From Kiritimatiellia bacterium (GTDB lineage Bacteria; Verrucomicrobiota; Kiritimatiellia; PWTM01), in contig JAOACR010000015.1 of NCBI GenBank assembly GCA_026417735.1, positions 1 to 64,000 on the forward strand: 64,000 nt of DNA, in the 5' to 3' direction. The notes under the pieces are model-generated. The model was not told where the DNA came from. It did not search any database and saw only the letters and a list, made by a program, of their open reading frames with translations. Below, piece by piece: positions 12,580-45,722 of the stretch (the first letter of the stretch is position 1; each line of letters starts with the position of its first letter). A program made the translations under genes and the position numbers.

Positions 12580-13821
12580 TCACCCCGCCAGCCGGCGGAC
12601 GTCGACGCCATCCACCAGCGAAAGCTCATGGACGGCGAACTTGCCGGCCAGCGCGGGATGGCACAAGGGATAGGCGGTCTCGATCACCCGGCGCAGCCGG
12701 CGCCCCGCCGACGCCAGCACGAGCGCTCCCGCCGAGCCCTTGTCTCCCCCGCCGAGCATCCGCTCGCCCAACACGCCGGGCACGGTGCGGGCCAGGTCGC
12801 ACATGGTCTCCAGTTCCCGCCCGGAAATTTCGTAGTCGTCGCGCAGACCATGACCGTCCGCCCGCAACACCGCGCCCACCGTCGCCAGATCACCCGCCCG
12901 CCAGGCGCGCAGCATCCGGCGAAAGCGACGCTGCGCATGGAAGATGTAGGTCAGGCGCCGGCAATGCGCGGGATGCGACGCTCCGAAGCGCTCGAGAATT
13001 TGGCGGTACAATGCCGCATCGCGCACGTCCGAGAGCTGCCGGATGCCAAACTCCGGTGCCGCCAGCGCGACGAGCTCCTCGCACTCGGCGCGCCGGATCC
13101 GATAGGTGGATTTCTCCAGCCCGGGGCGCTCCGTGCCGGTGTCCAGGCTGACCAGTCGGAACGCCGGCGCCGACGCCCCCAAGGGAATGTGCCGCACCGC
13201 ACGGGTCGCCGGGCAGTAGTAGGTGCCCATTCCCGCTCTCGCAAACAAAATCATGATCTGGTCCAGCTGGCCGCACGGCGAGCCGATGTAGTCGTTCTCC
13301 ACCGCCTGCGCCATGTCCACCACCCGCAGCGGCGCCGGCGGCGACACGCCGTTGACCTCCAGCATCGTCAGCAGCAGGTTCAGTGTAAGCGACGCGGAAC
13401 GCGACATGCCCCCGCCCGGAATGTTCCCAATCAACACCCCGTCCCACCCCCGAGCGACCGGAAATCCCTCCCGCCGCAACACCCAGACCACCCCGTACGG
13501 GAACCGCGCCCACGACTCGTTCACCGTGCGCGGCGGCGGCACCTCTCCGCCGCGGATCTCCACCACCCCGTCCTCAGGAAAGTTCGCGCTGTACAGCCGG
13601 ATCCGGTCCGTTCCGTTCGCACGGTACGCCAACCAGATGAACCGGTCCGTGCCCACGCCAAACAGATCCGTTCCGTTGTAATCGCCGTGTTCGACACCCA
13701 GGCAAAAGCGGGAGGACGTGCGCCGGATCCATCCCCCATCGACCCGCAACCTGGTCCGGACGGCCAGCCTCCGCAATGCCGCGACCGCCTCGCCGTCCGT
13801 CTGTACGTTCGCCGCGCTCAT
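12580..13821 (-). CDS. Divergent galactokinase (GHMP kinase family)
   Basis: ATP-dependent sugar kinase, 413 aa, expected to phosphorylate galactose or a related sugar at C1. Motif 1 is altered (RFCLGVEHGDYNGTD where galactokinases have GRVNLIGEHTDYN), but motif 2 (IPGGGMSRSASL), the catalytic Asp region (GSPCGQLDQIM) and motif 3 (GGGDKGSAGALV) are intact. Specificity may therefore differ from classical GalK. ATG 13821 lies 7 nt after the symporter stop with a G-rich site before it. With the upstream SSS symporter it forms an uptake-and-phosphorylation pair. No galT or galE is in the window. Confidence 0.85.
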   Translation of the reverse strand: MSAANVQTDGEAVAALRRLAVRTRLRVDGGWIRRTSSRFCLGVEHGDYNGTDLFGVGTDRFIWLAYRANGTDRIRLYSANFPEDGVVEIRGGEVPPPRTVNESWARFPYGVVWVLRREGFPVARGWDGVLIGNIPGGGMSRSASLTLNLLLTMLEVNGVSPPAPLRVVDMAQAVENDYIGSPCGQLDQIMILFARAGMGTYYCPATRAVRHIPLGASAPAFRLVSLDTGTERPGLEKSTYRIRRAECEELVALAAPEFGIRQLSDVRDAALYRQILERFGASHPAHCRRLTYIFHAQRRFRRMLRAWRAGDLATVGAVLRADGHGLRDDYEISGRELETMCDLARTVPGVLGERMLGGGDKGSAGALVLASAGRRLRRVIETAYPLCHPALAGKFAVHELSLVDGVDVRRLAG

Positions 13822-13828
13822 CCCCCGC

Positions 13829-15646
13829 TCACCAGAACGCAATGTAGAGCCCCAACGTCACCAGCACCACCAAGCCGCCGAACACCATCGCGCCACGTGA
13901 CGAGCGCACGTCCACTCGACCGCTCGCCCGAAACTCCACCGGCTGGGGCAGAGGCCGCGCCCACCCGATCAGCTGCATCACCGCCATCACTGCAAAAAAG
14001 CAGATCGCCATGCGGTCGAGAAATGCCACCGAGGGCCATCGCCATGCGATCAGGCCATAGAGGATGGGGTTCAAGAGCAAGCCCACCACGCCGGCAATGC
14101 CGGGCGCGCGACGGTTCAAAAGCCCGAAAACGAACACCGCGAGGATCCCCGGCGACACATACCCTTGAAACTCCTGGATGTACTTGAAGATGCCGCCAAA
14201 CCGGGGATCGTCCAGCAGCGGAGAGATCACACAGCCGATCACCACAAACACGCCAACGCAGATCCGGCCCATCGCCACCAGCAGGCGCTGCGAGGCGTCT
14301 CTCTTCAGATACTTCGCAAACACGTCCATCGTAAAAATCGTCGAAGCGGCGTTCAGCACTGCGGCGAGCGAACTGACGATCGCTCCCAGCATCGCTGCCA
14401 GCACAAAGCCCATCACCCCGCGGTTGCGCGGCACCAGCCGCCCAATCAGCAGCGCCAGCGCCGAATCATGCTTGTGCGACACCGGCCGCCGGATTGTCGG
14501 CGACCGACCCGCCGCGGTCGCGCGCTCGCGCGCCGCCGCATTGTGCAACTCGATCCGCGCGGCAAGCGGTGCCAGCTTCGGGCGGCTCGCCAGGTCAGGG
14601 GGCAGCTCGAATACGTCGGTGGAGTTCGCGGACGCCATCGCGCTTTCCACCAGCCGAACAAAATCATCCTCCGCGCGCGCCGCCATCTCGCCGCTGAACA
14701 GGTTGAACGCCGCCATGCCCGGAAACACGATGATGAACGGGATCAGCAGCTTCAGCGCCGCCGCAAACACGATGCCCTTCTGGCCCTCCCGCAGCGAGGC
14801 CGACCCCAGAACCCGCTGGGTGATGTACTGATTGAGGCCCCAGTAGTAGAAATTCGGAATCCAGAGCCCCACCACCAGCGCCGTCCATGGGATGTTCAGG
14901 TCCGTGCGGGGCAGCACCATGTGCAGCTTCGCACGGTTGAGCGCCAATAGCCGCGCCCAGCCGCCCTCCGGCAACACCGCCACCGCCGCCCCCGCGCCAT
15001 CGACCAGCTCCGCCGGCGACGCCGCGCCCAGCCGCCGCAGCGTGAAGAACAGGATCGCGCCACCCCCGAGCACCAGCGCGCTGCCCTGAATCAGGTCCGC
15101 CCATGCGCACGCCTTCAACCCTCCGAACGCGACATAGGCCGCCGCGATCAGCCCCATCACCCAACAGGCGGCGACCAGCGAAATCGAGTAGCCGTTGTCG
15201 CGCAGCAGGTCCCGCATCGTCAGCGCACCCGCATAGATCACGCCGGAGAGGCTCACGCCGATCAGGATGATCATCATGAACACCGCCATGATCAGCCGAG
15301 CCCAGTGGTTGTAGCGGTGTTCGAGGAACTCCGGAATCGTGTAGATGCCCGCACGCAGAAAGTACGGCAGGAACGCAAACGCGACGACCACCAGCGTGAT
15401 CGCCGCCATCCACTCGTAGCTGGCGATCGCGATCCCGAGATAGTTCGCCGCACTGCCCGACATGCCGACGAACTGCTCGGCCGAAATGTTCGCCGCGATC
15501 AGCGAGATGCCGATCAACCACCACGTCAGCCCCCGGCCAGCCAGAAAATACGCCTCGCTGTCGCCCTCGTGACGAGACTTCAACATCCCGACCGCGAGCA
15601 CCGCCGCGATGAACCCGACAAACACCAGCAGGTCCAGCACGCCCAT
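13829..15646 (-). CDS. Sodium/solute symporter (SSS family), probably sugar
   Basis: 605 aa with about 14 hydrophobic helices. Family features include AYFLAGRGLTWWLIGISLIAANISAEQFVGMSG near residues 32-63 (landmark only), FAFLPYFLRAGIYTIPEFLEHRY, and AMLGAIVSSLAAVLNAASTIFTMD, all typical of SGLT-like Na+/sugar cotransporters. A charged insert of about 60 residues lies near residues 330-400. It would import a sugar with Na+, which fits the Na+-NQR operon elsewhere in the window. It is followed at 7 nt by the galactokinase-like gene, and preceded by an AraC regulator in the same direction. Confidence 0.93.
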   Translation of the reverse strand: MGVLDLLVFVGFIAAVLAVGMLKSRHEGDSEAYFLAGRGLTWWLIGISLIAANISAEQFVGMSGSAANYLGIAIASYEWMAAITLVVVAFAFLPYFLRAGIYTIPEFLEHRYNHWARLIMAVFMMIILIGVSLSGVIYAGALTMRDLLRDNGYSISLVAACWVMGLIAAAYVAFGGLKACAWADLIQGSALVLGGGAILFFTLRRLGAASPAELVDGAGAAVAVLPEGGWARLLALNRAKLHMVLPRTDLNIPWTALVVGLWIPNFYYWGLNQYITQRVLGSASLREGQKGIVFAAALKLLIPFIIVFPGMAAFNLFSGEMAARAEDDFVRLVESAMASANSTDVFELPPDLASRPKLAPLAARIELHNAAARERATAAGRSPTIRRPVSHKHDSALALLIGRLVPRNRGVMGFVLAAMLGAIVSSLAAVLNAASTIFTMDVFAKYLKRDASQRLLVAMGRICVGVFVVIGCVISPLLDDPRFGGIFKYIQEFQGYVSPGILAVFVFGLLNRRAPGIAGVVGLLLNPILYGLIAWRWPSVAFLDRMAICFFAVMAVMQLIGWARPLPQPVEFRASGRVDVRSSRGAMVFGGLVVLVTLGLYIAFW

Positions 15647-15693
15647 CGCTCAACCTCCCAAGCCCCGCCGACCGCGGCCGGCGGTCGCGGCGC

Positions 15694-15723
15694 ACTATAT
15701 CGACCGCCGCGCCTGCGCAGCAA
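15694..15723 (-). promoter_or_regulatory. Putative promoter of the symporter-galactokinase unit
   Basis: Minus strand TTGCTG (15718-15723), 18-nt spacer, TATAGT (15694-15699). Its -35 lies inside the end of the AraC gene. The spacer length and the string gcgcactata match the element at 11553-11582, suggesting shared promoter architecture. Confidence 0.42.
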
Positions 15724-16636
15724 GCCACCGCCCGCCCGCTGCGCCGCCCTGCGCGCGTGCCCGGTAGGCGCTCGGCGTGACGCCGACCTTCGCGTGAAAG
15801 AGCCTCGAAAAGTAGTGCACGCCTCCGATGCCCACCCGCCATGCCACTTCCTGAATCGTCAGCGAGGTGGACCGCAGCAATTCGCAAGCCCGATTGATCC
15901 GCAGCTGCAAATGGTACTGCGCCGGCGAAAACCCGGTAAACGCGCGGAACTTCCTCCGAAACCACGAGTAGCTCACGTGCAACTCCCGTGCGAGCGCGCG
16001 CATGTCCAGCTCCCGATCCGCACACTCCGCCATCTTTGCGCGCGCCTTCAATACCGCCTCCGCCACAGCGTTCCCGGACAGCTGCCGACGCCGCTCCTCC
16101 ACTTCCGCGCGAGCCAGCACCTCGTGGATCCAGGCCGCGATCAGCGCGCGACTCCCGTACCGCTCATGCCGCAGCTCGTCCAAGATTTTCTCGTACACGT
16201 CCACCAGCGCGCGACATTCGCCGGGCTCCCGGATCGGCCGGCGCGGATCAAAACCGTGGCGCGCCATCATCGCCGCCACCTCGGAACCCGAGAACGCCAA
16301 CCAGTACTCGTCCCAGCCGGTCCTCCGCGCCGGGGTGTACCGATGCCAGACGCCGGGGAAGAGCGCCCAGATTTGCCCCGCCCGGACACGTCGGCGCCCC
16401 ACCTCCCGCGACTCAAACCAGCCGCTACCCCGCGTCAGATACACCAGCTGGTACTCGTCCAGCACCCGCCCGCGCCGCCAGGTGAAGTGGTGATCGGTCG
16501 GGTGCTGTGTGGGCGGATAGGGATGGCCCGCCGGCACGCTCGCAAATCCGCACCCAATCACGTACAGCGGCGCGCAGCGCATCGCCGCACTCACCGGCAG
16601 ATACCGGTGCCAGAACTTGGCCGGCGGCACGGACAT
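15695..16636 (-). CDS. AraC family transcriptional regulator
   Basis: 313 aa. The N-terminal half is a cupin-like sugar-sensing domain (HHFTWRRGRVLDEYQLVYLT, then GQIWALFPGVWHRY). The C-terminal 100 residues hold the two AraC helix-turn-helix motifs (MRALARELHVSYSWFRRKFR and IQEVAWRVGIGGVHYFSRLF). It lies directly upstream of the symporter and galactokinase genes and points the same way, so it probably controls that unit in response to its sugar. ATG 16636 is taken because the upstream extension lacks family similarity. Confidence 0.93.
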   Translation of the reverse strand: MSVPPAKFWHRYLPVSAAMRCAPLYVIGCGFASVPAGHPYPPTQHPTDHHFTWRRGRVLDEYQLVYLTRGSGWFESREVGRRRVRAGQIWALFPGVWHRYTPARRTGWDEYWLAFSGSEVAAMMARHGFDPRRPIREPGECRALVDVYEKILDELRHERYGSRALIAAWIHEVLARAEVEERRRQLSGNAVAEAVLKARAKMAECADRELDMRALARELHVSYSWFRRKFRAFTGFSPAQYHLQLRINRACELLRSTSLTIQEVAWRVGIGGVHYFSRLFHAKVGVTPSAYRARAQGGAAGGRWLAAQARRSI

Positions 16637-16729
16637 GCCCCCACTATGCGCGCACCGCCATCCGCTGTCCATTGCACGCGCCCCCGCCATCCGGCATGAT
16701 TCCCCGCTGGCGAAGGAGAGCGACTCCCG

Positions 16730-17818
16730 ATGACTGCGCCCACGTCACCCGCACTGCTGCTCGACGACCTCATCCGGCTCTCCCACGAGTTCGGCACCAT
16801 CGACTTCGTCCGTGGCGGCGGAGGCAACACCTCCGTCAAAACTGCGGATACCCTCTGGGTGAAACCCTCCGGCACCACACTCGCCGATCTCACCGCCGAA
16901 CGGCTCGTGCCGATGGACCGCGCGCGGCTCGCAGACCTCTATGCGATGACCCCGCCCGCCGACCCAGACGCCCGCGAGGCGATGGTCCGCGACGTGATGG
17001 CCGCCGCCCTGCGGCCCGGCGCCAGCGGCCGCCCCTCCGTCGAGGCACCCCTGCACGACACCTTCAGCCGACGTTTCGTCGTGCACACCCATCCCCCCCT
17101 CGTGAACGGGCTCACCTGCGCGGTCCACGGAGAGGCGGCCGCACGCGAGCTCTTTCCGGAAGCCATGTGGGTGCCGTACGTGGATCCCGGCTACACGCTG
17201 TGCATGGAAATCCGCCGCCGGCTCGCCGCCGTTCGCGCGACCCCCGCGGAACCGAACATCGTGCTGCTGCAAAACCATGGCGTCTTCATCGCCGCGGACA
17301 CGCCGGACGAAATCCGCACGCTCTACCGCCATCTGATGTCCACGCTCGCGGCCGCCTACGAGCAGCGGGGCGTCCGCCCCGTCTGGTCGCCCCCGCCGCC
17401 GGTACCGGAGCTGCGCGCCGAGTCGCTACGCGCGGAACTGCGCGCCGCGCTCGGACCGGACGCCGCCGCGATTCTGCTGCGCGGCCGCTTCGAAGTCGCC
17501 GAAGGCCCGCTCTCCCCCGACCACATCGTCTACGCACGGTCGTTTCCGATGACCGGCCCCCTCACCGCGGAAACCGCCGCGGAGTACCGCCAACGCCATG
17601 GCTTCCCGCCGCGCGTGGTCGTCGCGCCCGACGCAGTCGCGGGCGTCGGCGAGCGCCCCCGGATCGCCGAACTCGCAATCGATCTGGCCGAGGATGGCGC
17701 CTTCGTGCTGCGGCTCACCGCCGCCTTCGGCGGCCCCCGCTACCTCGACGACGCCGCCCGGCGGTTCATCGAGCACTGGGAAGTGGAGGCCTACCGTCAG
17801 AGCGTCGCCGCGCGCTGA
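16730..17818 (+). CDS. Class II aldolase, RhaD-type (stand-alone)
   Basis: 362 aa. Zinc-dependent class II aldolase/adducin fold. VRGGGGNTSVK (about 29-39) and TLWVKPSGT match the aldolase part of the bifunctional RhaD-type proteins (rhamnulose-1-phosphate aldolase/lactaldehyde dehydrogenase). Metal ligands are visible in HTHPPLVNGLTCAVHG and QNHGVFIAAD. The short-chain dehydrogenase half of RhaD is missing. It probably splits a ketose 1-phosphate into dihydroxyacetone phosphate and an aldehyde; the substrate is unknown. GGAG about 11 nt upstream supports ATG 16730. AraC genes lie on both sides. Confidence 0.85.
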   Translation: MTAPTSPALLLDDLIRLSHEFGTIDFVRGGGGNTSVKTADTLWVKPSGTTLADLTAERLVPMDRARLADLYAMTPPADPDAREAMVRDVMAAALRPGASGRPSVEAPLHDTFSRRFVVHTHPPLVNGLTCAVHGEAAARELFPEAMWVPYVDPGYTLCMEIRRRLAAVRATPAEPNIVLLQNHGVFIAADTPDEIRTLYRHLMSTLAAAYEQRGVRPVWSPPPPVPELRAESLRAELRAALGPDAAAILLRGRFEVAEGPLSPDHIVYARSFPMTGPLTAETAAEYRQRHGFPPRVVVAPDAVAGVGERPRIAELAIDLAEDGAFVLRLTAAFGGPRYLDDAARRFIEHWEVEAYRQSVAAR

Positions 17819-17892: not shown

Positions 17893-18801
17893 TCAGCGCC
17901 ACGCCCGCCGCCGGAGCTGGCGCGGTGACATCGCAAACAGCCGGCGTACGCAGCGGGAGAAATGAAACGGATTCGCAAAACCGCACCGGTCCGCAATCTC
18001 CGCCACGGACAGCCCCGTCTCGGTCAGCATCGCCGCACCGCGCTCGGTGCGCAGTCGCCAGAGGTACCGGGCGGGAGTTAGACCGGTCGCCGCTCGGAAC
18101 TTGTACAGCAGCGCGTTCGGGGAACAGCAGGCGGCACGACGGGCCCCCTCCAGACATTCCCGGTCGGCGAGGTGCCCCTCCATGTGCCGCAGCGCGCGCT
18201 GCACACACGGGTCGCGCCCCAGCGCCGCCGACGCCTCGCGCCGCAACCGCGCAAACTCCGCCAGCGCCGCGCGACCCAGCGCCTCGACCACCGCCCGCGC
18301 CGCCGCGTGCGCCGGCGGCGGCAACGAGAACGCCGCGGCGAAAATTTTCTCCAGCGCGTCCGACACGGCGACCCCCTCTGCCCCCCCCGCGAGCTCGCGC
18401 CGCAGCACGCCACCGACCAGCGACGGCGCCACCGAGCACCAGGAGTGATGCGTCTCGCCGTCCCGCGCAAACCGGAACAGCTCGCGATGCCCCGGCGTGA
18501 ACAGGTAGACCAGGCCCGGTAGAAGACGCCGTGCCGAACCGTCGACCCGCACCTCGCAGGCACCGCTGTGCAGCATCACCAGCTGATAGTCTCGCTGAAC
18601 CCGCGGGCCGCAGTATCCGCCCGGCTGGTAGCGCACTTGCCCAAACGAAACGTGACGCGTGCGCACCCCGCGGTGGTCCCACGCCACATGCACACCGTCG
18701 TAGTTCGGCCGCAGTTCGCCCACGGCGCCATGATGCGCCCGCCCGCGGCGCGGCGCAACCGAGGTTGTGGTCGCAGATATGTTTTTTGTGCTGCGGGTCA
18801 T
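17893..18801 (-). CDS. AraC family transcriptional regulator
   Basis: 302 aa. N-terminal cupin-like domain (YQLVMLHSGACEVRVDG, LLPGLVYLFTPGH). C-terminal AraC DNA-binding domain with two helix-turn-helix units, the second very typical (LSVAEIADRCGFANPFHFSR). Divergent from the URO-D/GH2 operon with only about 60 nt between the starts, so it most likely controls that operon and perhaps itself. The first 25 residues are poorly conserved in character, so a downstream start is possible. Confidence 0.92.
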   Translation of the reverse strand: MTRSTKNISATTTSVAPRRGRAHHGAVGELRPNYDGVHVAWDHRGVRTRHVSFGQVRYQPGGYCGPRVQRDYQLVMLHSGACEVRVDGSARRLLPGLVYLFTPGHRELFRFARDGETHHSWCSVAPSLVGGVLRRELAGGAEGVAVSDALEKIFAAAFSLPPPAHAAARAVVEALGRAALAEFARLRREASAALGRDPCVQRALRHMEGHLADRECLEGARRAACCSPNALLYKFRAATGLTPARYLWRLRTERGAAMLTETGLSVAEIADRCGFANPFHFSRCVRRLFAMSPRQLRRRAWR

Positions 18802-18847
18802 GGACCCGGACCGCGCGGTGTCACATCATCGAGCGCGGATTGCCCTC

Positions 18848-18856
18848 GGAGGTGAT
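18848..18856 (+). promoter_or_regulatory. Full-length Shine-Dalgarno site (GGAGGTGAT)
   Basis: GGAGGTGAT is complementary over nine bases to the usual 16S rRNA 3' end and sits 5 nt before ATG 18862. It fixes this start and suggests strong translation of the first gene of the operon. The same nonamer precedes the GH16 gene. Confidence 0.75.
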
Positions 18857-18861
18857 CGGCA

Positions 18862-20121
18862 ATGACCTCGCGTGATCGCGTCCGCGCCGCGCTGCGTCAT
18901 CAGGCACCCGATCGCGTGCCGGTGGACCTTGGCTCGACCGCGGTCACCGGCATCCACGTCGCCGCGTTGAACCGGCTCCGCGCCGCGGTGCTGGGACCAA
19001 GCTCCCGGCTCCCCCGGGTGCACGAGCCCTACCAAATGCTCGGTGAGGTCGACCGCGAGCTGCGCGACGCGCTGGGCCTGGACGCGGTGGGCGTCTTCCC
19101 CCGCCAGACCATGTTCGGCTTCGAACGGCGCGACTGGAAACGCATCCGGCTCTTCGATGGCACCGAATGCGAAGTGCCGGGCGGATTCGTGATCACCGAG
19201 ACACCCGAGGGCGACTGGCTGATCCATCCGCAGGGGGACCCCGACGCACCGCCCAGTGCCCGCATGCCGGCCGGCGGCTATTTCTTCGATTCGATCATTC
19301 GCCAACCGCCCATCGACGAGGCGCGATTGGACCCCGCGGACAACGCGGAGGAGTTCACAGACCTGACCGACGAGGACCTCAATTGGTACCGCGCGGAGGC
19401 GGAGCGCGCGGCAGCGGAGGGCCGCGCCGTAGTGCTTTCCATGCCGGGGACCGCGTTTGGGGACATTGCGCTGGTGCCGGCGCCCTGGATGAAGCAGCCG
19501 CGCGGCATTCGCGACGTGGAGGAGTGGTACGTCTCCCTGGCCGCGCGCCCCGCGTACGTGCGGGCAGTCTTCGATCGGCAGCTCGAGATCGCACTCCGCA
19601 ACCTCGAGCGGATGATCGCGCGGCTCGGAGAGCTGGTGGACGTCGTGCTGCTCACCGGGACGGACTTCGGCGAACAGCGCGGTCTTTTCGTTTCGCCCGA
19701 GATGTACCGTGAGTTGTTCAAGCCCTACCACATCGCGGTGAACCGGCTGGTCCACGCGCGAAGCCAGTGGGCAACGATGATCCACTCGTGCGGCTCGGTG
19801 TTCGACCTGATTCCCGACTTCATCGAGGCCGGCTTCGACGTGCTGACGCCGGTGCAGTGCTCCGCGGCGAAAATGGACCCGCGCACGTTGAAACGCGACT
19901 TCGGGCGCGACCTCGTCTTCTGGGGCGGCGGCGTCAACACGCAACAGACGCTCCCGTTCGGCACCCCGGAACAAGTCTACCGCGAAGTGCGCGAGCGCAT
20001 CGAGATTTTCGGGGAGGGCGGCGGTTTTGTGTTCAACACGATCCACAACATTCAGGCCAACACGCCAACGGAGAACATGCTCGCGATGTTCCGCGCAATT
20101 CGAGACAGCGCAGCGAGCTGA
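18862..20121 (+). CDS. URO-D superfamily protein, MtaA/CmuA-like
   Basis: 419 aa. TIM-barrel protein of the uroporphyrinogen decarboxylase superfamily, beginning TSRDRVRAALRHQAPDRVPVD. It has the zinc-site pattern of the cobalamin-dependent methyltransferases MtaA/CmuA: HSCG (about residue 312) followed by a later Cys in PVQCS. It is therefore better read as a methyltransferase-like protein than as HemE. Substrate unknown; methylated compounds set free from polysaccharide are one idea. First gene of an operon with GH2, a sugar porter and a beta-helix protein, with a divergent AraC gene beside it. Confidence 0.87.
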   Translation: MTSRDRVRAALRHQAPDRVPVDLGSTAVTGIHVAALNRLRAAVLGPSSRLPRVHEPYQMLGEVDRELRDALGLDAVGVFPRQTMFGFERRDWKRIRLFDGTECEVPGGFVITETPEGDWLIHPQGDPDAPPSARMPAGGYFFDSIIRQPPIDEARLDPADNAEEFTDLTDEDLNWYRAEAERAAAEGRAVVLSMPGTAFGDIALVPAPWMKQPRGIRDVEEWYVSLAARPAYVRAVFDRQLEIALRNLERMIARLGELVDVVLLTGTDFGEQRGLFVSPEMYRELFKPYHIAVNRLVHARSQWATMIHSCGSVFDLIPDFIEAGFDVLTPVQCSAAKMDPRTLKRDFGRDLVFWGGGVNTQQTLPFGTPEQVYREVRERIEIFGEGGGFVFNTIHNIQANTPTENMLAMFRAIRDSAAS

Positions 20122-20158
20122 TCGGACGTCGCAACCGGTCAACCGCGGGAGGGTCAAC

Positions 20159-22297
20159 ATGCAACGCCCCGTCCAGGCTCCGCGCCTGATGATCCTGCTG
20201 TTCGCGATCGCCGCGCCCCTCGCCCGGGCGGAGCGTCAGGTGATCGCTCTCGACGGCGTCTGGGAAGTCGCCGAAGGCACGCTCGCCACGCCGCCGTCCC
20301 GCTACGACCATACAGTGCCCGTGCCCGGCCTTTTGGACATGGCCGATCCGCCCTTTCAGCAACCGGGCAGTACCGTTTCTTTGGCCGACCGCACAAACCC
20401 CAGGCTGCGGCCCGCCGATCCGCGCCGAGAGGCGTTCTGGTACCGCCGCCTCTTCACCCTCGAAAGGCCGCTGCCGCCGACCGCTCGGCTGCGTATCCGA
20501 AAAGCCTGCTACGGGATCGCGGTGTGGCTGAACGGCGCCGCAGTAGGCGAGCACGACCGGAACTTCACGCCAGCAGAGTTCGACGTGCGTCCTCACCTGC
20601 GCGAGAACGGCACGACGAACGAGCTGGTGATTCGGGTCGGCGCCTCGCTCGCGCAGGTGCCGCCGCACCGCTGCGACGGCTGGGACAACGAAAAAAGCCG
20701 CTACATCCCCGGCATTTACGACTCGGTGGAGCTGATCCTCGCAGGAGAGCCGTACATCCGGAACATCCAAGTCGCGCCGCTGCCACGCTATGGCGCCGCG
20801 CGCGTGCGCGTGGAGCTCGACCGACCGTGGGCCGGCACCGCGACGGTGCAGATCGTGGAATGGCAGAGCCGTGCCCCCGCGGGCGAGGGGCGCCTGGTCT
20901 ACCTGGGCGGTCTGTTGGGCGACGACGAAGTGCCCATCCGCAATCCAAAAACCTGGTCGCCAGAATCGCCTTTTCTCTACGAAGCGGTTGTCACCGCGGG
21001 GACGGACGTCGCCCGCGCCCGGTTCGGGCTCCGCTCGTTTCGGACCGACCCCCCGACCGGTCGGGTGCTGCTCAACGACCGTCCATACTACCTGCGGGGC
21101 TCGAACGTGACGATTTTCCGTTTCTTCGAGGACGCCGAGCGGCGCGAGCTGCCTTGGAATCGCGACTGGGTTCGCCGCCTGCATCGCGCCTTCAAGGACA
21201 TGCATTGGAACGCGCTGCGGTACTGCATCGGATTTCCTCCCGATTTCTGGTACGAGATCGCCGACGAGGAGGGCATTCTCATCCAGGATGAGTTTCCCAT
21301 CTGGTACATCCGCGCCGACACCTGGCCCTCCGCGATCACGGGCGAGCGGCTCGCCGAGGAGTACCGGGAATGGATGCGCCACCGTTGGAACCATCCCTGT
21401 GTCGTGATCTGGGACGCGCAGAACGAAACGCCGAACGACAGCGCGATTCTCCAGGCGATCGCGATGGTGCGCGGGCTCGACCTCTCGGACCGCCCGTGGG
21501 AAAACGGCTGGGGCATCGCCCCGCGCCCCGGCGACATCGTCGAACGCCACCCGTACCGCTCAAACCGCCCCGACTTTCAGTGGGAGGAGTTCGGACGCCA
21601 CTCCGGTATCCCCGGCGTGCCGTTCCCGGAACCCGGTCGCGCGCTGCGCCCACCCTACCTGATCAACGAATACGGATGGCTCTGGATCAACCGCGACGGC
21701 TCACTGCCGACGCTGACCACCGCGGTGTACGAGCGCTTGCTCGGTCCGAATGCGACGGTCGATCAGCGGCGCGAATATTACGCCCGCGCGCTCGCCGCAA
21801 AGACCGAGTTTTGGCGCGCACGGCGCCAGTGCGCCGGGGTGCTGCACTTCTGCGGACTGGGTTATTCCCGACCCGACGGCCAGACCAGCGACCACTGGCT
21901 GGACGTCCGCAACCTCGTGTGGGAACCCCTTTTCTACCGCTACGTCCGCGATGCGTTCGCGCCGGTCGGCGTGATGCTCGACTGGTGGGCAACCACCATC
22001 GCCACGAATGCGCAGTTCCACGTGCCGCTGGTCGTGGTGAACGATCTGGATTCGCACTGGGTCGGCGAAGTGCGCGTGGAAATTCGCCGCGACGGCAACT
22101 TGATTCGCACGGCCCGAGCGACGGTCACCGTGCCCGCTCTGGAAACTGCCACCGTCAGCTTCCCCTACCTGCGCGCGCCCGCCTCGCCGGGGCCGCTGGA
22201 GCTGGTCGCGGTGCTCTCGCCCGGCGTCGGCGGCGGCGAAGTGCGCAGCATCCGGCAAACGCGTGTCGTCGCCGCGCCGCCCCCAACATCCCCATGA
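20159..22297 (+). CDS. Glycoside hydrolase family 2 protein, secreted
   Basis: 712 aa with an N-terminal signal peptide (about residues 10-24, cleavage near LARA). Domain order: jelly-roll sugar-binding domain, immunoglobulin-like beta-sandwich, then TIM barrel. The acid/base Glu423 follows Asn422 in WDAQNE, and Glu504 in INEYGW is the probable nucleophile, so it should be active. GH2 enzymes include beta-galactosidases, beta-glucuronidases and beta-mannosidases; I cannot decide which this is. The in-frame extension before ATG 20159 overlaps the URO-D gene and lacks a signal peptide; GGGAGGG precedes 20159. The stop overlaps the next start (ATGA). Confidence 0.92.
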   Translation: MQRPVQAPRLMILLFAIAAPLARAERQVIALDGVWEVAEGTLATPPSRYDHTVPVPGLLDMADPPFQQPGSTVSLADRTNPRLRPADPRREAFWYRRLFTLERPLPPTARLRIRKACYGIAVWLNGAAVGEHDRNFTPAEFDVRPHLRENGTTNELVIRVGASLAQVPPHRCDGWDNEKSRYIPGIYDSVELILAGEPYIRNIQVAPLPRYGAARVRVELDRPWAGTATVQIVEWQSRAPAGEGRLVYLGGLLGDDEVPIRNPKTWSPESPFLYEAVVTAGTDVARARFGLRSFRTDPPTGRVLLNDRPYYLRGSNVTIFRFFEDAERRELPWNRDWVRRLHRAFKDMHWNALRYCIGFPPDFWYEIADEEGILIQDEFPIWYIRADTWPSAITGERLAEEYREWMRHRWNHPCVVIWDAQNETPNDSAILQAIAMVRGLDLSDRPWENGWGIAPRPGDIVERHPYRSNRPDFQWEEFGRHSGIPGVPFPEPGRALRPPYLINEYGWLWINRDGSLPTLTTAVYERLLGPNATVDQRREYYARALAAKTEFWRARRQCAGVLHFCGLGYSRPDGQTSDHWLDVRNLVWEPLFYRYVRDAFAPVGVMLDWWATTIATNAQFHVPLVVVNDLDSHWVGEVRVEIRRDGNLIRTARATVTVPALETATVSFPYLRAPASPGPLELVAVLSPGVGGGEVRSIRQTRVVAAPPPTSP

Positions 22298-23766
22298 ACA
22301 TGGCTCAGAACATTGCTGGCCCTCCGATCGATCCCCACGTGGGGCTGGCAACCGGCGAGCCCTCCGGCGGCGACCGGCTCGGCGGAACGGTGATCGGCGC
22401 CTCCCTCGTCGCCACGATGGGTGGCTTGCTTTTCGGTTATGACACCGCGGTGATCAGCGGCGCCATCGGGTTTCTTGTGCGGCATTTCCAATTGAGCCCC
22501 GCGATGGAAGGATGGGCCGCCGCCAGCGCGCTGGTCGGCTGCGTGATCGGCTCGGCGCTCGCCGGCCCGATCGGCGACCGCTGGGGCCGCCGCACCGCGC
22601 TGCGCGTCGCCGCAGTGCTCTTCCTGGTTTCCGCGGTCGGGACCGCGCTGCCTCGCACGCTCACGGAGTTCGTGCTGTACCGCGCGCTCGGCGGCATCGG
22701 CGTCGGCGCCGCGGCGCTGACCAGCCCGCTCTACATCGCCGAGCTCGCGCCCGCCCGCCACCGCGGCCGGCTGGTGTCCTGGAACCAGATGGCGATCGTG
22801 ATCGGCATGCTCGTGGTGTACTTCGTCAACTGGGCGATTGCGCGTCAAGGCGACCTGGAATGGAACGTCCGGCTCGGATGGCGGTGGATGTTCGGGTCCG
22901 AGGCTCTCCCCGCCGCCGCCTTCCTCGGCCTGCTGTTCACCGTGCCGGAGAGCCCGCGATGGCTGATCCGGCGCGGCGACCTCGCCACGGCGCGGGCGGT
23001 CCTGGTGCGGATCGCCGGGCCCGCCGCTGCGGAGGCGGAGATCGCCGACGTCACCGAGGCGCTCGCCTCGGAAAGCGAGTCGTTCGGTGAGCTTCTGCGC
23101 CCGCGCTGGCGCCGGCCAATGGCGATCGGGCTGGGGCTGGCGGTGTTTCAGCAGGTGACCGGCATCAACGTCTTCCTTTACTTCGCGCCCGAAATCCTCC
23201 AGCGCATCGCCGGCGCGGGAGTGGACGCCGCCCTCTTGCAGACCGTGCTCGTCGGGGCCGTGAACATGTCCGGCACCATCCTCGCGATTCGGACGGTGGA
23301 CCGCTGGGGGCGCCGACCGCTGCTGCTCACCGGCTACGCCGGCATGGGCGCCGCGCTGCTCACGCTCGGCCTCGCGGCGGCCGCACAGCGAATTGCCGGC
23401 TGGACGCTCGTCCCGATTCTCATCTACATCGCCGCGTTCTCGATGTCGGTGGGGCCAGTCACCTGGGTCGTGCTCTCGGAAATCTTCCCGACGCGGCTGC
23501 GGGCCCGCGCGATGGCGGTCGCCACCGTTGCGCTGTGGACCGCGAACTACGTCGTCTCGCAAACCTTCCCGATGATGGACCGCGATCCGGGGCTCGTCGC
23601 CCGCTTTCACCACGGTTTCCCCTTCCTGATCTATGCGGCGATGTGCGCGGGCGCGTGGGCGCTCGTCGCGCGCGCGGTCCCTGAGACCCGCGGCCGCTCC
23701 CTCGAGGAGATCGAACGCAGCTGGTCCGCCGCAGGGCGGAGCGGCCATCGGGAGACGCCACAATGA
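22294..23766 (+). CDS. MFS sugar porter
   Basis: 490 aa, twelve membrane helices. Sugar-porter signatures are present: FGYDTAVISGAIGFL in helix 1, RWGRRTALR after helix 2, PESPRWLIRRG at the end of helix 6, QQVTGINVFLYFAPEI in helix 7, and PETRGRSLEEIE at the C-terminus. It probably imports a monosaccharide with H+, for instance the product of the GH2 enzyme. The frame is open further upstream, but ATG 22294, coupled by ATGA to the GH2 stop, matches the family start. Its own stop is in turn coupled to the beta-helix gene. Confidence 0.95.
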   Translation: MNMAQNIAGPPIDPHVGLATGEPSGGDRLGGTVIGASLVATMGGLLFGYDTAVISGAIGFLVRHFQLSPAMEGWAAASALVGCVIGSALAGPIGDRWGRRTALRVAAVLFLVSAVGTALPRTLTEFVLYRALGGIGVGAAALTSPLYIAELAPARHRGRLVSWNQMAIVIGMLVVYFVNWAIARQGDLEWNVRLGWRWMFGSEALPAAAFLGLLFTVPESPRWLIRRGDLATARAVLVRIAGPAAAEAEIADVTEALASESESFGELLRPRWRRPMAIGLGLAVFQQVTGINVFLYFAPEILQRIAGAGVDAALLQTVLVGAVNMSGTILAIRTVDRWGRRPLLLTGYAGMGAALLTLGLAAAAQRIAGWTLVPILIYIAAFSMSVGPVTWVVLSEIFPTRLRARAMAVATVALWTANYVVSQTFPMMDRDPGLVARFHHGFPFLIYAAMCAGAWALVARAVPETRGRSLEEIERSWSAAGRSGHRETPQ

Positions 23767-25655
23767 ACGCGATGACGACCAACCGGCCGGCACCGGCCGC
23801 GCTGCTCCTGCTCCTTGCATCGATGATCCCGGCGGCGGGCACGGAGTACCACGTCGCCACGACCGGCGACGACGCCAATCCTGGCACCGCCGCCGCGCCC
23901 TTCCGCACCATCCAGCGCGCGGCCGACCTCGCGCTGCCGGGCGATGTGATCACCGTCCACGCGGGCATCTACCGCGAGCGGGTCAATCCCCGCCGTGGAG
24001 GCGACTCGCCCGAACGCCCCATCGTGTACCGTGCCGCCCCGGGGGAACACGTCGAAATCCGCGGATCGGAGGTCGTGCGGGGTTGGACACCGCTGAGCAA
24101 CGGTGTGTGGCGGATCGTTTTGCCGAACACGTTTTTCGGACCGTTCAACCCCTTCGCCGATCCCATCCGCGGCGACTGGTTCTATCCCCTGAAGCGCCCC
24201 CACCACACCGGCGCCGTGTATCTCGACGGCGAGGAGCTCGTGGAAGCAGCGTCGCTGGAGGAGCTCGAGCGCCCCCCTGCAACACCGCCCGCCCCGGGTT
24301 GGTGGTTCGCAACAGTGGACACCTCGAACACGACGATCCTCGCCAGGTTCGGCGTGGCGGACCCCAATGTTCGCCTCGTCGAGGTGAACGCCCGTCGCAC
24401 CGTCTTCTATCCCGATCGCCCCGGTCGCGACTTCATCACTGTCCGCGGCTTCGTTCTTCGGCATGCGGCGACACCCTGGGCGCCGCCGACGGCCGAGCAG
24501 GTGGGACTGATCGGCACCCACTGGAGCCGCGGGTGGGTGATCGAGCAAAACGTGATCTCCCACAGCCGCTGTGTGGGCGTGACGCTGGGAAAGTACGGTG
24601 ACCAGTTCGACAACACTTCCGAGGACACCGCCACCGGCTACGTCGCGACGATCCATCGCGCGCTTCAACACGGCTGGCACCGCGACCGCATCGGACATCA
24701 CCTGGTCCGCGACAACGTGATCTCCCACTGTGAGCAGGCGGGGCTGGTCGGAAGCCTTGGCGCGATCTTCAGCGTCATCTCAAACAATGTGATTCACACC
24801 ATCCACACCCGCCGGCGCTTTGGCGGTGCGGAGCAGGCAGGCATCAAAATCCATGCCGCGATCGATGCCCGCATCGAACACAATCTGATCGTCAATGCCT
24901 ACCGCGGCATCTGGCTGGACTGGATGGCGCAAGGCACGCGGGTCACCCGGAACGTCTGCATTTCCAATTCCTCCGACGACGTCTTCGTCGAAGTGAACCA
25001 CGGACCGTTCGTGCTCGACCACAACTGGCTCTGTTCCCCAGTGAGCCTCCGCGACTGGTCCCAAGGGGGCGCATTCGTGCACAACTTTTTCGGCGGGAAG
25101 ATCATCTCGCGCCCGGAGCTGGCCCGCGAAACGCCATACCACCGCGCGCATTCGACGGAGCTGGCGGGCATGAGCGCAATCCAGGGCGGGGACCATCGCT
25201 TCTTCGCGAACATTTTTGCGCCACCGGCGCCCGCAAAGGAACATGGCTACGGGCTGCACGCCTACGCGACCAGTGCCCTGCCCGTCTCTGCGAGGGGGAA
25301 CATCTACGCGAACGGCGCCCAACCGTTGCCCGATGAACCGGACGCGGTGCGGCTCGGTGCGCCAATCCAATGGAGCCTCGAGATCGGTCCCGGTGGCCAC
25401 TGGCAGCTGCGGTGGAGCGGCCCCTGCCCGCCATCGGCGCTCGCCGCGCCCATCCGCTCCACGCAGTTCGGCCTCGCCCGTATTCCGAACCTTCCTTTCG
25501 TGAACCCCGACGATTCGCCTATGGTGTTCGACGTGGATTTCGCCGGCCACCCGCGGAGCGCGTCGTCCACCGCGGGTCCCCTGCAGACGTGGCCGGCCGA
25601 CGGCGCGATCACCCTCTGGCCGTCAACGCCCGAGAGGGGCGACCTCCGCCGGTAG
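23763..25655 (+). CDS. Secreted right-handed parallel beta-helix protein
   Basis: 630 aa with a signal peptide (about residues 10-26, AALLLLLASMIPAAGTEY). The start of the mature part (YHVATTGDDANPGTAAAPFRTIQRAADLALPGD) is the DUF1565-type opening of pectate lyase-like proteins. Repeating coils with Asn and Ile/Val ladders follow (HNLIVNAYRGIWLDWMAQGT, VTRNVCISNSSDD). It is likely a polysaccharide lyase or glycosidase acting outside the cytoplasm; I cannot name the catalytic residues. The last gene of the URO-D/GH2/porter operon, starting on an ATGA overlap. Confidence 0.85.
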   Translation: MNAMTTNRPAPAALLLLLASMIPAAGTEYHVATTGDDANPGTAAAPFRTIQRAADLALPGDVITVHAGIYRERVNPRRGGDSPERPIVYRAAPGEHVEIRGSEVVRGWTPLSNGVWRIVLPNTFFGPFNPFADPIRGDWFYPLKRPHHTGAVYLDGEELVEAASLEELERPPATPPAPGWWFATVDTSNTTILARFGVADPNVRLVEVNARRTVFYPDRPGRDFITVRGFVLRHAATPWAPPTAEQVGLIGTHWSRGWVIEQNVISHSRCVGVTLGKYGDQFDNTSEDTATGYVATIHRALQHGWHRDRIGHHLVRDNVISHCEQAGLVGSLGAIFSVISNNVIHTIHTRRRFGGAEQAGIKIHAAIDARIEHNLIVNAYRGIWLDWMAQGTRVTRNVCISNSSDDVFVEVNHGPFVLDHNWLCSPVSLRDWSQGGAFVHNFFGGKIISRPELARETPYHRAHSTELAGMSAIQGGDHRFFANIFAPPAPAKEHGYGLHAYATSALPVSARGNIYANGAQPLPDEPDAVRLGAPIQWSLEIGPGGHWQLRWSGPCPPSALAAPIRSTQFGLARIPNLPFVNPDDSPMVFDVDFAGHPRSASSTAGPLQTWPADGAITLWPSTPERGDLRR

Positions 25656-27306: not shown

Positions 27307-28041
27307 TCAGGCCTCCACCGCCAGCGCCGCCAGTTGCCTTGCGCCGCGCACCAGCGGCAGATGCCCCACACCGCGGAGAGGCCTCACGTGAACCTGCGGC
27401 CACATCTGTTGAAACCGCCCCACGGAACGGCGTACCGCGCCGAAGGTGTGTTCGCCCACCGCGACCGTGATCGGAAGCCGGAGGTCCGAGAATCGCTCAA
27501 CCGGTTCCAGCTCCCGCAGCATCCGCAACCAGTGTAGCGTCGCATCGTGATCCAGCCCTTCGAACGCCGTCAGAAAGTCATCATCGCTGGACTGCAGGCG
27601 GCGGAGCACCGCCGTGACGATCCGTCGGCCGGCCGCAGTCGCGAAGGAGACATGATATGCCGCGGCACCGGGTGCCCCCCACAGGAACAGGCGGAAGTAC
27701 CACGGCACATACGCGAAGGGATCAATCAGGAACAACCGCTCCACGAGCGCCGGACACCGCTGCGCTGCAAGCAGCGCCAAGATCGCGCCGCTGCAGAACC
27801 CGATCCAGCGCGCGGGGCCAACGCCCAGCCGCCGCAGATCGGCCACCAGCTCGTCCACAATCGCGGTCGCGGTCCAGACCACCGGCCGTGGCGAGCGTCC
27901 GTAGCCCGGCAGGTCCGCGCTCCACAGTCGCCAGCCCGGAGGCAGCCGCGCCGCCAACGGGGCGAACTGACGGTGGTCCCCTCCCCACCCGTGCAGCGCA
28001 ACGATGTCGCGATCACCCGCGCCGAACGTTTCAATGTGCAT
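27307..28041 (-). CDS. Alpha/beta hydrolase with Cys at nucleophile position
   Basis: 244 aa, BioH-like fold: oxyanion motif LHGWGGDHR (16-24), SADLPGYGRSPRP and a C-terminal GVGHLPLV with the catalytic His. The nucleophile elbow reads GFCSG (81-85), so Cys83 stands where Ser is normal, as in dienelactone hydrolases. The usual acid Asp after the sixth strand is not apparent (VAVGEHTFG). Last gene of the crtB-crtI unit, overlapping crtI by 11 nt, so a role in making or modifying a carotenoid is likely but unproven. Not reliably BioH, since no biotin genes are near. Confidence 0.82.
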   Translation of the reverse strand: MHIETFGAGDRDIVALHGWGGDHRQFAPLAARLPPGWRLWSADLPGYGRSPRPVVWTATAIVDELVADLRRLGVGPARWIGFCSGAILALLAAQRCPALVERLFLIDPFAYVPWYFRLFLWGAPGAAAYHVSFATAAGRRIVTAVLRRLQSSDDDFLTAFEGLDHDATLHWLRMLRELEPVERFSDLRLPITVAVGEHTFGAVRRSVGRFQQMWPQVHVRPLRGVGHLPLVRGARQLAALAVEA

Positions 28042-29500
28042 CGGAGAACACCCGCCGCGCGGTCATCGCGCCGGACAGCGCCACCATCGGCAGCCCGGTC
28101 CCCGGCCGCGTGCTCGCGCCCACGTAGTACAGGCCATGCACCTCCACATCGCGATTCGGGGGGCGAAGCGGCCCGATCTGCGCCCGCGTGTGCGCGGCGC
28201 CGAATGCCGAACCGTCGAACAGCCCGTACCGGTCGCGCCAGTCCAGCGGGGTCCAAACAACATCCACTTCCCGCGCCGCCTTGGAAATCGCCCAGCCGTG
28301 TTGGGCAAGCCGCGTCTCCACCTGCCGCCGCACCCGCTCGACAGTGGCCCCCCAGCTGTCATGGTGCTGGCTGATGCAGGGACACGGCACCAGCACGAAC
28401 ACCGCATCCGCACCCGGCGGCGCAAGCGAATCGTCGGTGCGCGACGGCACGCTCACGTAAAAGGGCAGTTCCGCCGGCAACCGGCCCGCCATCAGTTCCG
28501 CATAGGCTCGGCCACTCGTCGTGGGCAGAAAGATCGTATGGTGCGGCATTCCGGGCACACCGCCCCGCACACCCCAGTAGAACGTGATCACGCCGGGCGT
28601 CATTCTCAGCCGCCGGCGCGCGGGGCGGCCCAGCAGCTCTCCCCACGTCGTGGGCACATCGACGTTGGACACCACGCAGCCGGCAGCCTCCACCTCCCCG
28701 TCCGCCAACTCGACGCCCTCCACGCAGCGCCCCTTCGTCCGGATCCTCGAAACCCGTCGGCCGGTGACGATCCGCACGCCGAGTTCACGCGCGAGCGTCT
28801 CGACCGCCTGAATCAGCGCGTACATGCCGCCAGCAGGAAGCCAGAGCCCGTACGCCAGCTCCCCATAGGGCAGAATCGAGAACAGACCGGCCAACTCCGC
28901 GGGCGAGCCGCCAAGATACATCGCATAGGCACCGAACGCCTCTCGCAATCGTGGGCTCCGAAAAAAGCGGCCCAGTTCAGCATCCAGCGAGCGCCAGACC
29001 GCCGTTCGCAACATTTCCCGCGGCGAAAGCGCGGCGAACCAGAACAGCAGACGTTCCCGATCGCTCGTGACCAACTTCCGAAACGCGAGGTTGTATTTCA
29101 CCTCCGCATCGGCGAGAAACTCCATCAAGCCGATCGAATCGCCGGGAGACACCCGCTCGACCTCTTCACGGAGACGGTCGAGCTCGCCGCACAGCGTGAA
29201 CGCACCGCCGTCCGGCCAAACAAAGTGGAGCGCGGGGTCCACCCGCTGCAGTCGCACACGTCGATCAAAGTCCGCTCCCGCCGCTGCGAACAGTTCGCGG
29301 AAGACCCACGGGTAGTTCAGCAGAGACGGCCCCGTGTCGAACCGGTACCCCTGCTGTTCGATCCGTCCCGCGCGCCCGCCGGCCTGCGCGTTGGACTCGA
29401 ACACCGTGACCTGAAGGCCCGCACGACGCAGATGGATCGCCGCGCTGAGACCCCCGAGCCCCGCGCCGATGACGACCGCCCGGTCCGTCCTCACGTTCAT
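28031..29500 (-). CDS. Phytoene desaturase family protein (CrtI/CrtN)
   Basis: 489 aa. Membrane-associated FAD flavoprotein. It begins with the dinucleotide fold (AVVIGAGLGGLSAAIHLRR, then VFESNAQAGGRAG) and ends with the carotenoid desaturase signature (GLYYVGASTRPGTGLPMVALSGAMTA, residues about 450-475). It introduces double bonds into phytoene or diapophytoene made by the upstream synthase; isomerase-type CrtO members share the fold. The start overlaps the synthase end by 4 nt. Whether the pathway is C30 or C40 cannot be read from this sequence. Confidence 0.93.
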   Translation of the reverse strand: MNVRTDRAVVIGAGLGGLSAAIHLRRAGLQVTVFESNAQAGGRAGRIEQQGYRFDTGPSLLNYPWVFRELFAAAGADFDRRVRLQRVDPALHFVWPDGGAFTLCGELDRLREEVERVSPGDSIGLMEFLADAEVKYNLAFRKLVTSDRERLLFWFAALSPREMLRTAVWRSLDAELGRFFRSPRLREAFGAYAMYLGGSPAELAGLFSILPYGELAYGLWLPAGGMYALIQAVETLARELGVRIVTGRRVSRIRTKGRCVEGVELADGEVEAAGCVVSNVDVPTTWGELLGRPARRRLRMTPGVITFYWGVRGGVPGMPHHTIFLPTTSGRAYAELMAGRLPAELPFYVSVPSRTDDSLAPPGADAVFVLVPCPCISQHHDSWGATVERVRRQVETRLAQHGWAISKAAREVDVVWTPLDWRDRYGLFDGSAFGAAHTRAQIGPLRPPNRDVEVHGLYYVGASTRPGTGLPMVALSGAMTARRVFSDAH

Positions 29501-30498
29501 TCGCCGATGCCGGATGGCTGCAGGTAGGCGCGAGGAAGTATCCAGTACTTGCTACATGGCAACACGCGCCACTTCTGGTGGAACGGCACCGAGAGCCGGC
29601 GACCGCCCGCGTCCGGCGCCCGCAGAATCGCCCGGTTCAGCGCTCCATAGACATTGATGCAGGCACGGATCGCGATGCGACTATCCTCCGCAAACGCGTC
29701 GAGTCGCCGGGCCGCCTCGGCATAGCGCCGCTCCGCATCCTCCGCGAGCCGGCGCACCGCCGCCCGTCGCCCCGCCGGCGACTCCCAGTCGCCGTTCCGC
29801 AGATGGCTGACCGGCACATACCGCCGGCCCCGCCCATCGTCCTCAACCACGTCGCGGGCAAAATTGGTCAGCTGCAGCGCAATGCCGAGCTCACGCGCAC
29901 AGCTGAGCGCCTCGCCCCAACGATCGGCCGAGGCGGCCCCATACACATGCGCGAGAAAATAGCCCACCACCACCGCGCTGCCGTAGACGTACGTCTCGAT
30001 CAGATCGTCAAGGTCCTGAAACGGCCGCGGCCGGACATCCCGGCGCATCGCATCGAGAAACTCGTGGTAAAACACCGGCGGAATCCGGCAGCTCTGGATC
30101 ACCTGCGCAAAGCCCGCGACGAAACACGGCACCCGCGCCTCGAGCGCGGATCGCAGATCCCCGCAGGCGAGTCCGCGATCATAGCCCGCCGCCCATTCGT
30201 CGAGCCGCCTCAGCTTCTCCTCCGGCGCAATCGCCAACGTGTCGACCACCTCGTCTGGATAGCGAACCGCGGCATAGATCACTTCAACCCGGTCCCGCTT
30301 CGGAGCCGGCAGAAACCGGCTGACCATGAAAAAGCCCGTCGTGAAGGACCGCATCACATGCCGCGCCGCCCGCACGACGTACCGCCACGGGTCGTTCGAT
30401 GCCAGCGCCCGTTCGCGAACGGACTCCATCAGTGCGTCCCACGCATCCTCGGTCCAAGTGACCGCACCCGTCGGTTTTCCCTGGTGGCGTATGTTCAT
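29497..30498 (-). CDS. crtB: Phytoene/squalene synthase family protein
   Basis: 333 aa. Trans-isoprenyl head-to-head condensing enzyme. Both aspartate-rich motifs are there: YPDEVVDT near residue 82 (DxxxD) and NFARDVVEDDGRGRRYVP near residue 215. It makes phytoene from two GGPP, or diapophytoene or squalene from two FPP. First gene of a three-gene unit with a desaturase and a hydrolase. ATG 30498 is preferred over the upstream codon at 30558, because the intervening region holds a plausible extended -10 promoter. The C-terminal 20 residues are poorly conserved. Confidence 0.9.
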   Translation of the reverse strand: MNIRHQGKPTGAVTWTEDAWDALMESVRERALASNDPWRYVVRAARHVMRSFTTGFFMVSRFLPAPKRDRVEVIYAAVRYPDEVVDTLAIAPEEKLRRLDEWAAGYDRGLACGDLRSALEARVPCFVAGFAQVIQSCRIPPVFYHEFLDAMRRDVRPRPFQDLDDLIETYVYGSAVVVGYFLAHVYGAASADRWGEALSCARELGIALQLTNFARDVVEDDGRGRRYVPVSHLRNGDWESPAGRRAAVRRLAEDAERRYAEAARRLDAFAEDSRIAIRACINVYGALNRAILRAPDAGGRRLSVPFHQKWRVLPCSKYWILPRAYLQPSGIGE

Positions 30499-30526
30499 CA
30501 CGTCGTCACGCTCGAACGGCACGGCG

Positions 30527-30535
30527 ATTATCGCA
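30527..30535 (-). promoter_or_regulatory. Putative extended -10 promoter of the crtB operon
   Basis: Minus strand TGC directly before GATAAT (30527-30532), an extended -10 with one mismatch to TATAAT. No good -35 is visible. Transcription would start about 22 nt before ATG 30498. Confidence 0.35.
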
Positions 30536-30617
30536 AAACCTACGTTTGGTGCCCCCACCTCGCAAGTTTCGCATCACGCGCGCCTCCCCCTCAACGCGAT
30601 ACGGGACCGATCGCTCC

Positions 30618-41116: not shown

Positions 41117-41144
41117 TTGACCGGTGGAGTGCCTGAGCTATATT
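41117..41144 (+). promoter_or_regulatory. Putative strong promoter of the nqr operon
   Basis: TTGACC (41117-41122), 16-nt spacer, TATATT (41139-41144); each hexamer has one mismatch to consensus. The predicted start near 41150-41152 lies only about 8-10 nt before ATG 41160, so the mRNA would have a very short leader. It covers the alternative GTG start at 41124. Confidence 0.55.
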
Positions 41145-41159
41145 GACGCACTTCATCAC

Positions 41160-44448: not shown

Positions 44449-44453
44449 CGGCG

Positions 44454-45074: not shown

Positions 45075-45088
45075 TCGAGGTGCACCTC

Positions 45089-45703: not shown

Positions 45704-45722
45704 CTCGGAGGGATGGGCGGCG

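Follow-up and report, generated by a model that had tools for sequence, protein, structure and literature searches.

A URO-D superfamily protein in a glycan operon of a Kiritimatiellia bacterium as a possible substrate-side methyltransferase in anaerobic sugar O-demethylation

The closest described systems to the one studied here are the three-component O-demethylases of acetogens and methoxydotrophs (MtvB/OdmB/VdmB, and MtoB with its corrinoid protein, activase and MT-II). Ours would share with them a substrate-side methyltransferase (MT-I) of the URO-D superfamily, a separate corrinoid protein, an activase and a methyl-folate type transferase (PMC8630106, PMC13222342). The known O-demethylases act on aromatic methyl ethers and are encoded beside their partners, whereas the gene described here belongs to a sugar operon and its putative partners lie elsewhere in the genome. 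The CoM methyltransferases MtaA and MtbA, and the Mlp proteins of type 1 mlp gene clusters (PMC10418091), have the fold and the H-x-C motif in common with our protein, and the operons of its relatives likewise include a corrinoid protein and an activase. Our protein differs from them in its low score against the family profile, in a histidine (His395) that takes the place of the third Cys, in having no CoM or selenium context, and in its sugar-related neighbours. The chloromethane MT-I CdmB is also a member of the superfamily with a corrinoid partner, but its gene context differs; it is reported to contain no zinc and to have a hydrophobic haloalkane channel (PMC13222342). The corrinoid methyltransferases known in this superfamily are those that demethylate aromatic ethers or act on haloalkanes (PMC8630106, PMC13222342), beside the S/Se enzymes (PMC10418091). 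The only sugar demethylase among CAZyme genes in the literature that we found is an oxygen-dependent P450, which demethylates 6-O-methyl-D-galactose and is encoded in porphyran loci, likewise among CAZymes that include a GH2 (PMC10033563). That route yields formaldehyde (PMC10033563), whereas the system proposed here would be independent of oxygen and would keep the methyl group. Our literature search retrieved no paper linking URO-D proteins to sugar demethylation, an absence that is no proof of novelty; a URO-D corrinoid methyltransferase within a sugar operon is probably a new combination with a new class of substrate.

The window, by which we mean the whole stretch of 64,000 nucleotides analysed, contains a unit of four genes on the forward strand, in the order URO-D, GH2, sugar porter, beta-helix protein. 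The URO-D gene (18862..20121, +, 419 aa) is preceded by a full-length Shine-Dalgarno sequence, GGAGGTGAT (18847..18855, +), just 5' of its ATG. Its stop codon lies 37 nt before the start of the GH2 gene (20159..22297, +, 712 aa), with no overlap between the two. The porter gene (22294..23766, +, 490 aa) and the beta-helix gene (23763..25655, +, 630 aa) are each joined to the preceding gene by an ATGA overlap (22294-22297 and 23763-23766). An AraC-family gene (17893..18801, -; HTH_18 and AraC_binding over cut-off) is divergent from the URO-D gene at a distance of 60 bp, recurs at the loci of relatives, and probably encodes the regulator of the unit. The common strand, the ATGA overlaps, the Shine-Dalgarno sequence and the divergent AraC gene had been pointed out in the preliminary description and were all verified in the sequence; its four domain calls also hold, each family being confirmed by Pfam and NCBIfam. 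Upstream of the AraC gene lies a class II aldolase-like gene (16730..17818, +; PF00596), and further away a sodium:solute symporter (13829..15646, -) and a GHMP kinase (12580..13821, -). The unit and these flanking genes are conserved in a sister species (L046), and the membership of the flanking genes in the pathway is uncertain. A search with PADLOC gave no match. We consider it rather likely that the URO-D protein is the substrate-side component (MT-I) of a sugar O-demethylase that works without oxygen and uses a shared corrinoid hub, its substrate presumably being a methylated sugar.

The beta-helix protein can be aligned over nearly its whole chain with the beta-xylosidase XylC (PDB 3vst, 2e-144) and carries the GH120 insertion domain (PF21258, 88 bits). 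Its D386 and E410 align with D382 and E405 of XylC, which we take to be the catalytic pair of that enzyme, so that the beta-helix, the insertion domain and the catalytic Asp/Glu of a GH120 are all present. Compared with XylC, the protein has a signal-like N-terminus and shares an operon with a URO-D gene. The GH2 protein matches PF00703 and PF02836 over their cut-offs, has GH2 relatives in the PDB, and has two candidate catalytic Glu, E423 and E504, in the motifs WDAQNE and LINEYGW. The porter is a member of the sugar porter family (TIGR00879, 401.5 bits for a cut-off of 237.8) that remains below the XylE equivalog (NF007484, 512.4 for a cut-off of 608); its closest match in the PDB is the D-xylose:proton symporter XylE (4gby, 1e-126). 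The GH120 beta-xylosidase kinship, the XylE-like porter and the GH2 together point to a xylose-containing glycan. Read by eye in the sequence rather than with a prediction tool, signal-like segments are found at the N-termini of the GH2 and GH120 proteins and not on the URO-D protein, which is therefore more likely to act in the cytoplasm on an imported sugar than on the polysaccharide itself. According to the preliminary description, the unit may remove both sugars and methyl groups from a methylated polysaccharide: the methyltransferase-type fold described below agrees with methyl removal, an imported sugar now seems the likelier target than the polysaccharide, and the methylated sugar as donor is our presumption.

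The gene order recurs in other genomes. The pairing of URO-D with GH2 was found in four of them (G001, G002, G008, G212), and in the sister species G003 the porter is broken. At the 66 loci of relatives we identified a porter at 22, an AraC gene at 14 (mostly divergent), a GH120 at 13 and a GH2 at 8. Compared with position shuffles, these families are found next to the URO-D gene in excess, with 15 loci for the porter (4.4 expected), 8 for GH120 (3.3 expected) and 7 for GH2 (1.7 expected), AraC also being enriched at adjacent positions; the counts are approximate because home-made gene calls shorten some starts in high-GC loci. Sulfatase and SSF genes recur at these loci too, with an adjacency not above chance in the shuffles, and the Pfam tally of the remaining neighbours revealed no other dominant family, only scattered GH106, 95, 43, 29, 97 and 35.

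The operons of paralogues sharpen the link of URO-D proteins to sugars. The genome has 10 URO-D genes, and many relatives have more candidate places. Its own paralogues are found beside rhaM and a GH29 (C23), beside a GH29 (two places on C9) and beside a GH106 (C20). In other genomes, one run of genes on a single strand comprises rhaT, rhaM, URO-D, a corrinoid protein and a B12 activation domain (L170), another locus comprises GH2, URO-D, a corrinoid protein and a downstream gene like that of the former (L171), and a third has GH29, an SSF symporter, rhaM and URO-D with a 4-nt overlap (L190). It is paralogues, about 28-44% identical to our protein, and not orthologues that have the rhaM/rhaT and GH29 links. 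These contexts bear on the possibility that, as a corrinoid MT-I, the URO-D protein uses a donor other than a sugar, be it a methoxylated phenolic aglycone or another small methyl compound. The GH2 and GH120 proteins could free such aglycones, and the characterised O-demethylases of the superfamily that are named in PMC13222342 act on methoxylated aromatics, others on haloalkanes. However, what recurs around these genes is a sugar porter, an AraC regulator and exo-glycosidases of several sugar types, and rhaM and rhaT, to which the paralogues are coupled, deal with monosaccharides in free form. We thus regard a donor other than a sugar as unlikely and retain the methylated sugar as the favoured substrate.

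The URO-D protein itself is clearly within the superfamily (PF01208, 65.8 bits for a cut-off of 23.9). Its earlier label, 'MtaA-like', is loose: the URO-D/MtaA fold is shared, but the profile of the MtaA/CmuA family (TIGR01463) matches only residues ~215-415 and scores 42.2 bits for a cut-off of 235.4, which leaves the protein outside that family. The hemE equivalog (TIGR01464) gave no match to it at 1e-3, and a separate HemE candidate is encoded in the same genome (360 bits). Since searches of PDB sequences with the protein or its profile gave marginal matches only, we compared folds. The AlphaFold model (mean pLDDT 94.4, pTM 0.92) predicts a URO-D TIM-barrel of the methyltransferase type, and the protein carries a candidate metal-site motif. 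Over ~300 aligned residues it has a Z of 23 to MtaA and of 23-25 to HemE, the predicted fold being equally near to both. The structures of CdmB and MtoB were absent among the fold matches, which is not evidence against kinship.

Residues H308, C310, G311, Q332, H395 and N396 are invariant in the alignments of relatives (38 and 21 sequences). In the alignment with MtaA, the HSCG of our protein (H308-S-C310, 19783..19791, +) is opposite the HICG of MtaA, and H395 (20044..20046, +) is opposite the third ligand, a Cys. The HxC...C zinc pattern proposed initially thus stands for its H-x-C part and fails for its second Cys, C333 (19858..19860, +), which is replaced by Ser or another residue in relatives. 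The third position being His395, the protein does not have the His-Cys-Cys zinc site of MtaA/CmuA; another URO-D protein of the genome (C3:148345) has the full set, and the genome's HemE lacks the HxC motif. From these alignments, H308 and C310, probably with H395, would form a putative metal site. In this superfamily the His-Cys-Cys site is reported to be that of the S-methyltransferases, and the O-methyltransferases to swap one or both Cys (PMC10418091), so that a protein with His395 fits an enzyme of the O-type better than MtaA. An MtaA-type CoM function was rejected on account of the missing third Cys.

Three lines of evidence tie the URO-D family to corrinoid methyl transfer: co-occurrence, the operons of relatives, and the partners encoded in the same genome. 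We searched 388 genomes of the phylum for the family (E<=1e-30) and for a methyltransferase-type corrinoid protein (E<=1e-46). The latter is present in 75 of the 77 genomes with the family and in 49 of the 311 others (Fisher, 8e-44). With the family narrowed to close relatives (E<=1e-100), the corresponding fractions are 36/37 and 88/351 (8e-19), and a rough count at the level of genera gives about 9e-15, all three values ignoring kinship. One genome with the family and a missing corrinoid match, G203, is 91% complete.

At nine loci, relatives with 48-55% identity form an operon or cluster with a corrinoid protein, often joined by an activase and by a further methyltransferase. The corrinoid gene adjoins the URO-D gene at six of them (L118, L127, L152, L165, L166, L167) and is in the same gene cluster at the other three (L148, L168, L169). 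Gene order is UROD-CORR-MtaA-like MT in the two loci of Acidobacteria (L118 and L127), CORR-UROD-UROD2 in L152, L165 and L166, the first of which additionally has DUF1638 and activase genes, and CORR-UROD-MT-cobW/DUF1638-activase in L167. In L152 and L167 alike, the activase is of the RACo type, and a cobW/DUF1638 protein is encoded along with another URO-D methyltransferase. In the tree, the corrinoid-linked members are in one part of the subfamily (27 rows), mixed with members linked to porters and GHs. The clade of the window protein (37 rows) has porter and GH neighbours and none of the corrinoid operons, which are found in its sister part only. The function that we infer for our protein would thus be transferred from one clade to the other, a step that is helped by the invariance of the active-site residues.

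One may also suppose that the URO-D protein catalyses a non-methyl reaction, such as a sugar-acid decarboxylation or a tetrapyrrole side reaction, and that its association with corrinoid proteins reflects the shared lifestyle of anaerobic glycan degraders. The predicted fold, the His that HemE also has where H395 sits, and statistics that disregard kinship are all compatible with this view. Yet the HxCG motif is missing from the genome's true HemE, and the operons join the family directly to a corrinoid protein and an activase in several families and in more than one phylum. A reaction without methyl transfer therefore seems to us distinctly improbable, and we hold to a corrinoid-dependent methyltransferase.

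The genome encodes the corrinoid protein sought elsewhere than in the operon, and with it an activase and a methyl-folate methyltransferase. The sole corrinoid protein matched by the profiles (B12-binding_2/B12-binding, 209 aa, C17:165116-165742) is adjoined by a RACo/AcsV-like activase gene. This cluster consists of these two genes only, a dedicated corrinoid protein and its reductive activase, and the pair is conserved within the family (L179-L182). The MT-II would be an AcsE-like methyl-folate:corrinoid methyltransferase (C3:57089-58102), whose relatives adjoin a corrinoid gene in three genomes (G145, G371, G274). MetE is complete, so methionine synthesis needs no corrinoid, and a search of the genome for a MetH-type corrinoid domain gave no match; on these grounds we rejected methionine synthesis as the sole role of the corrinoid protein. 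Together, the corrinoid protein, the activase and the AcsE-like protein make up a methyl hub that methionine synthesis does not explain. It is very improbable that the URO-D protein is instead the acceptor-side enzyme (MT-II) of such a hub, with a thiol, for instance homocysteine or a CoM-like compound, receiving the methyl group carried by the corrinoid. This role is that of MtaA and MtbA in the superfamily, and the homocysteine methyltransferase in the L148 and L168 clusters could suggest it, but the His-Cys-Cys site of S-methyltransferases is absent, the second URO-D protein of the corrinoid operons suits the role better, and the gene is part of a sugar operon in a genome that has MetE.

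With the URO-D protein as MT-I, the operon would serve to degrade and import a methylated, xylose-containing glycan without oxygen, assuming that the target glycan is O-methylated. The GH2 and GH120 proteins would act outside the cytoplasm and free mono- or oligosaccharides, which the XylE-like porter would bring in. The URO-D protein would then take the O-methyl sugar at its H308/C310 site and transfer its methyl group onto Co(I) in the separately encoded corrinoid protein, which the neighbouring activase would keep reduced. The AcsE-like methyltransferase would move the methyl group to tetrahydrofolate, and the demethylated sugar would enter normal catabolism.

The glycans of algae, cyanobacteria and plants commonly contain O-methylated sugars. 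More tentatively, the large expansions of URO-D genes in PVC and related glycan degraders may be sets of O-demethylases, each specific for a sugar, that all deliver methyl groups to a single shared corrinoid protein. Methylated sugars of the xylose, fucose and rhamnose types would then have a general route that needs no oxygen. If the proposed function is true, this oxygen-free counterpart of the P450 would account for the use of methylated sugars by anaerobic glycan degraders and for the fate of the methyl carbon. Many genes now annotated as uroporphyrinogen decarboxylase would also gain a function, one that could be tested with a simple assay of methyl-corrinoid formation.

Among the paralogues, sugar genes are associated with a corrinoid methyl system in a single same-strand run of rhaT, rhaM, a URO-D gene, a corrinoid protein gene and a B12 activation domain gene (L170:7671-11790, reverse strand), in which the methyl system is coupled with a deoxysugar transporter and mutarotase. 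A second cluster (L171:7150-15043) consists of a GH2 gene, a URO-D gene, a corrinoid protein gene, a gene resembling the activation-domain gene of the first run and a second URO-D gene, with an AraC-like gene divergent to it; its genome (G236) is one contig.

DUF1638, with or without cobW, repeatedly adjoins URO-D, corrinoid and activase genes (L101, L152, L167, L169, L183); it may act as an accessory to corrinoid methyltransferases. A thioredoxin-like domain is fused to a URO-D protein at two loci, beside a cobW-type GTPase (L056:10175-12515) or beside this GTPase and DUF1638 (L152:6217-9309). F-x-C replaces H-x-C in the URO-D part of these fusions, which are perhaps acceptor-side methyltransferases (MT-II) or metal/redox service proteins.

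In the window, a GHMP kinase, a sodium:solute symporter, a second AraC gene and a class II aldolase (12580-17818) adjoin the operon, all four syntenic in the sister species (G003), and perhaps serve additional sugar catabolism. In G003 itself, a deletion and frameshifts disrupt the sugar porter gene (L046:12744-13448), while the URO-D, GH2 and GH120 genes flanking it are intact. The window also encodes a heparinase II/III-like protein adjoined by phytoene synthase and desaturase-type genes (28031-32678, reverse strand), and NqrA, NqrB, an Rnf-Nqr membrane subunit and an NqrF-like flavoprotein of a Na+-translocating NADH:quinone reductase (41124-46955).

Elsewhere in the window's own genome, a stand-alone corrinoid protein is accompanied by a RACo/AcsV-like activase (L052:9617-12196, contig C17). 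The two are conserved as a pair throughout the family, and are a candidate shared methyl hub.
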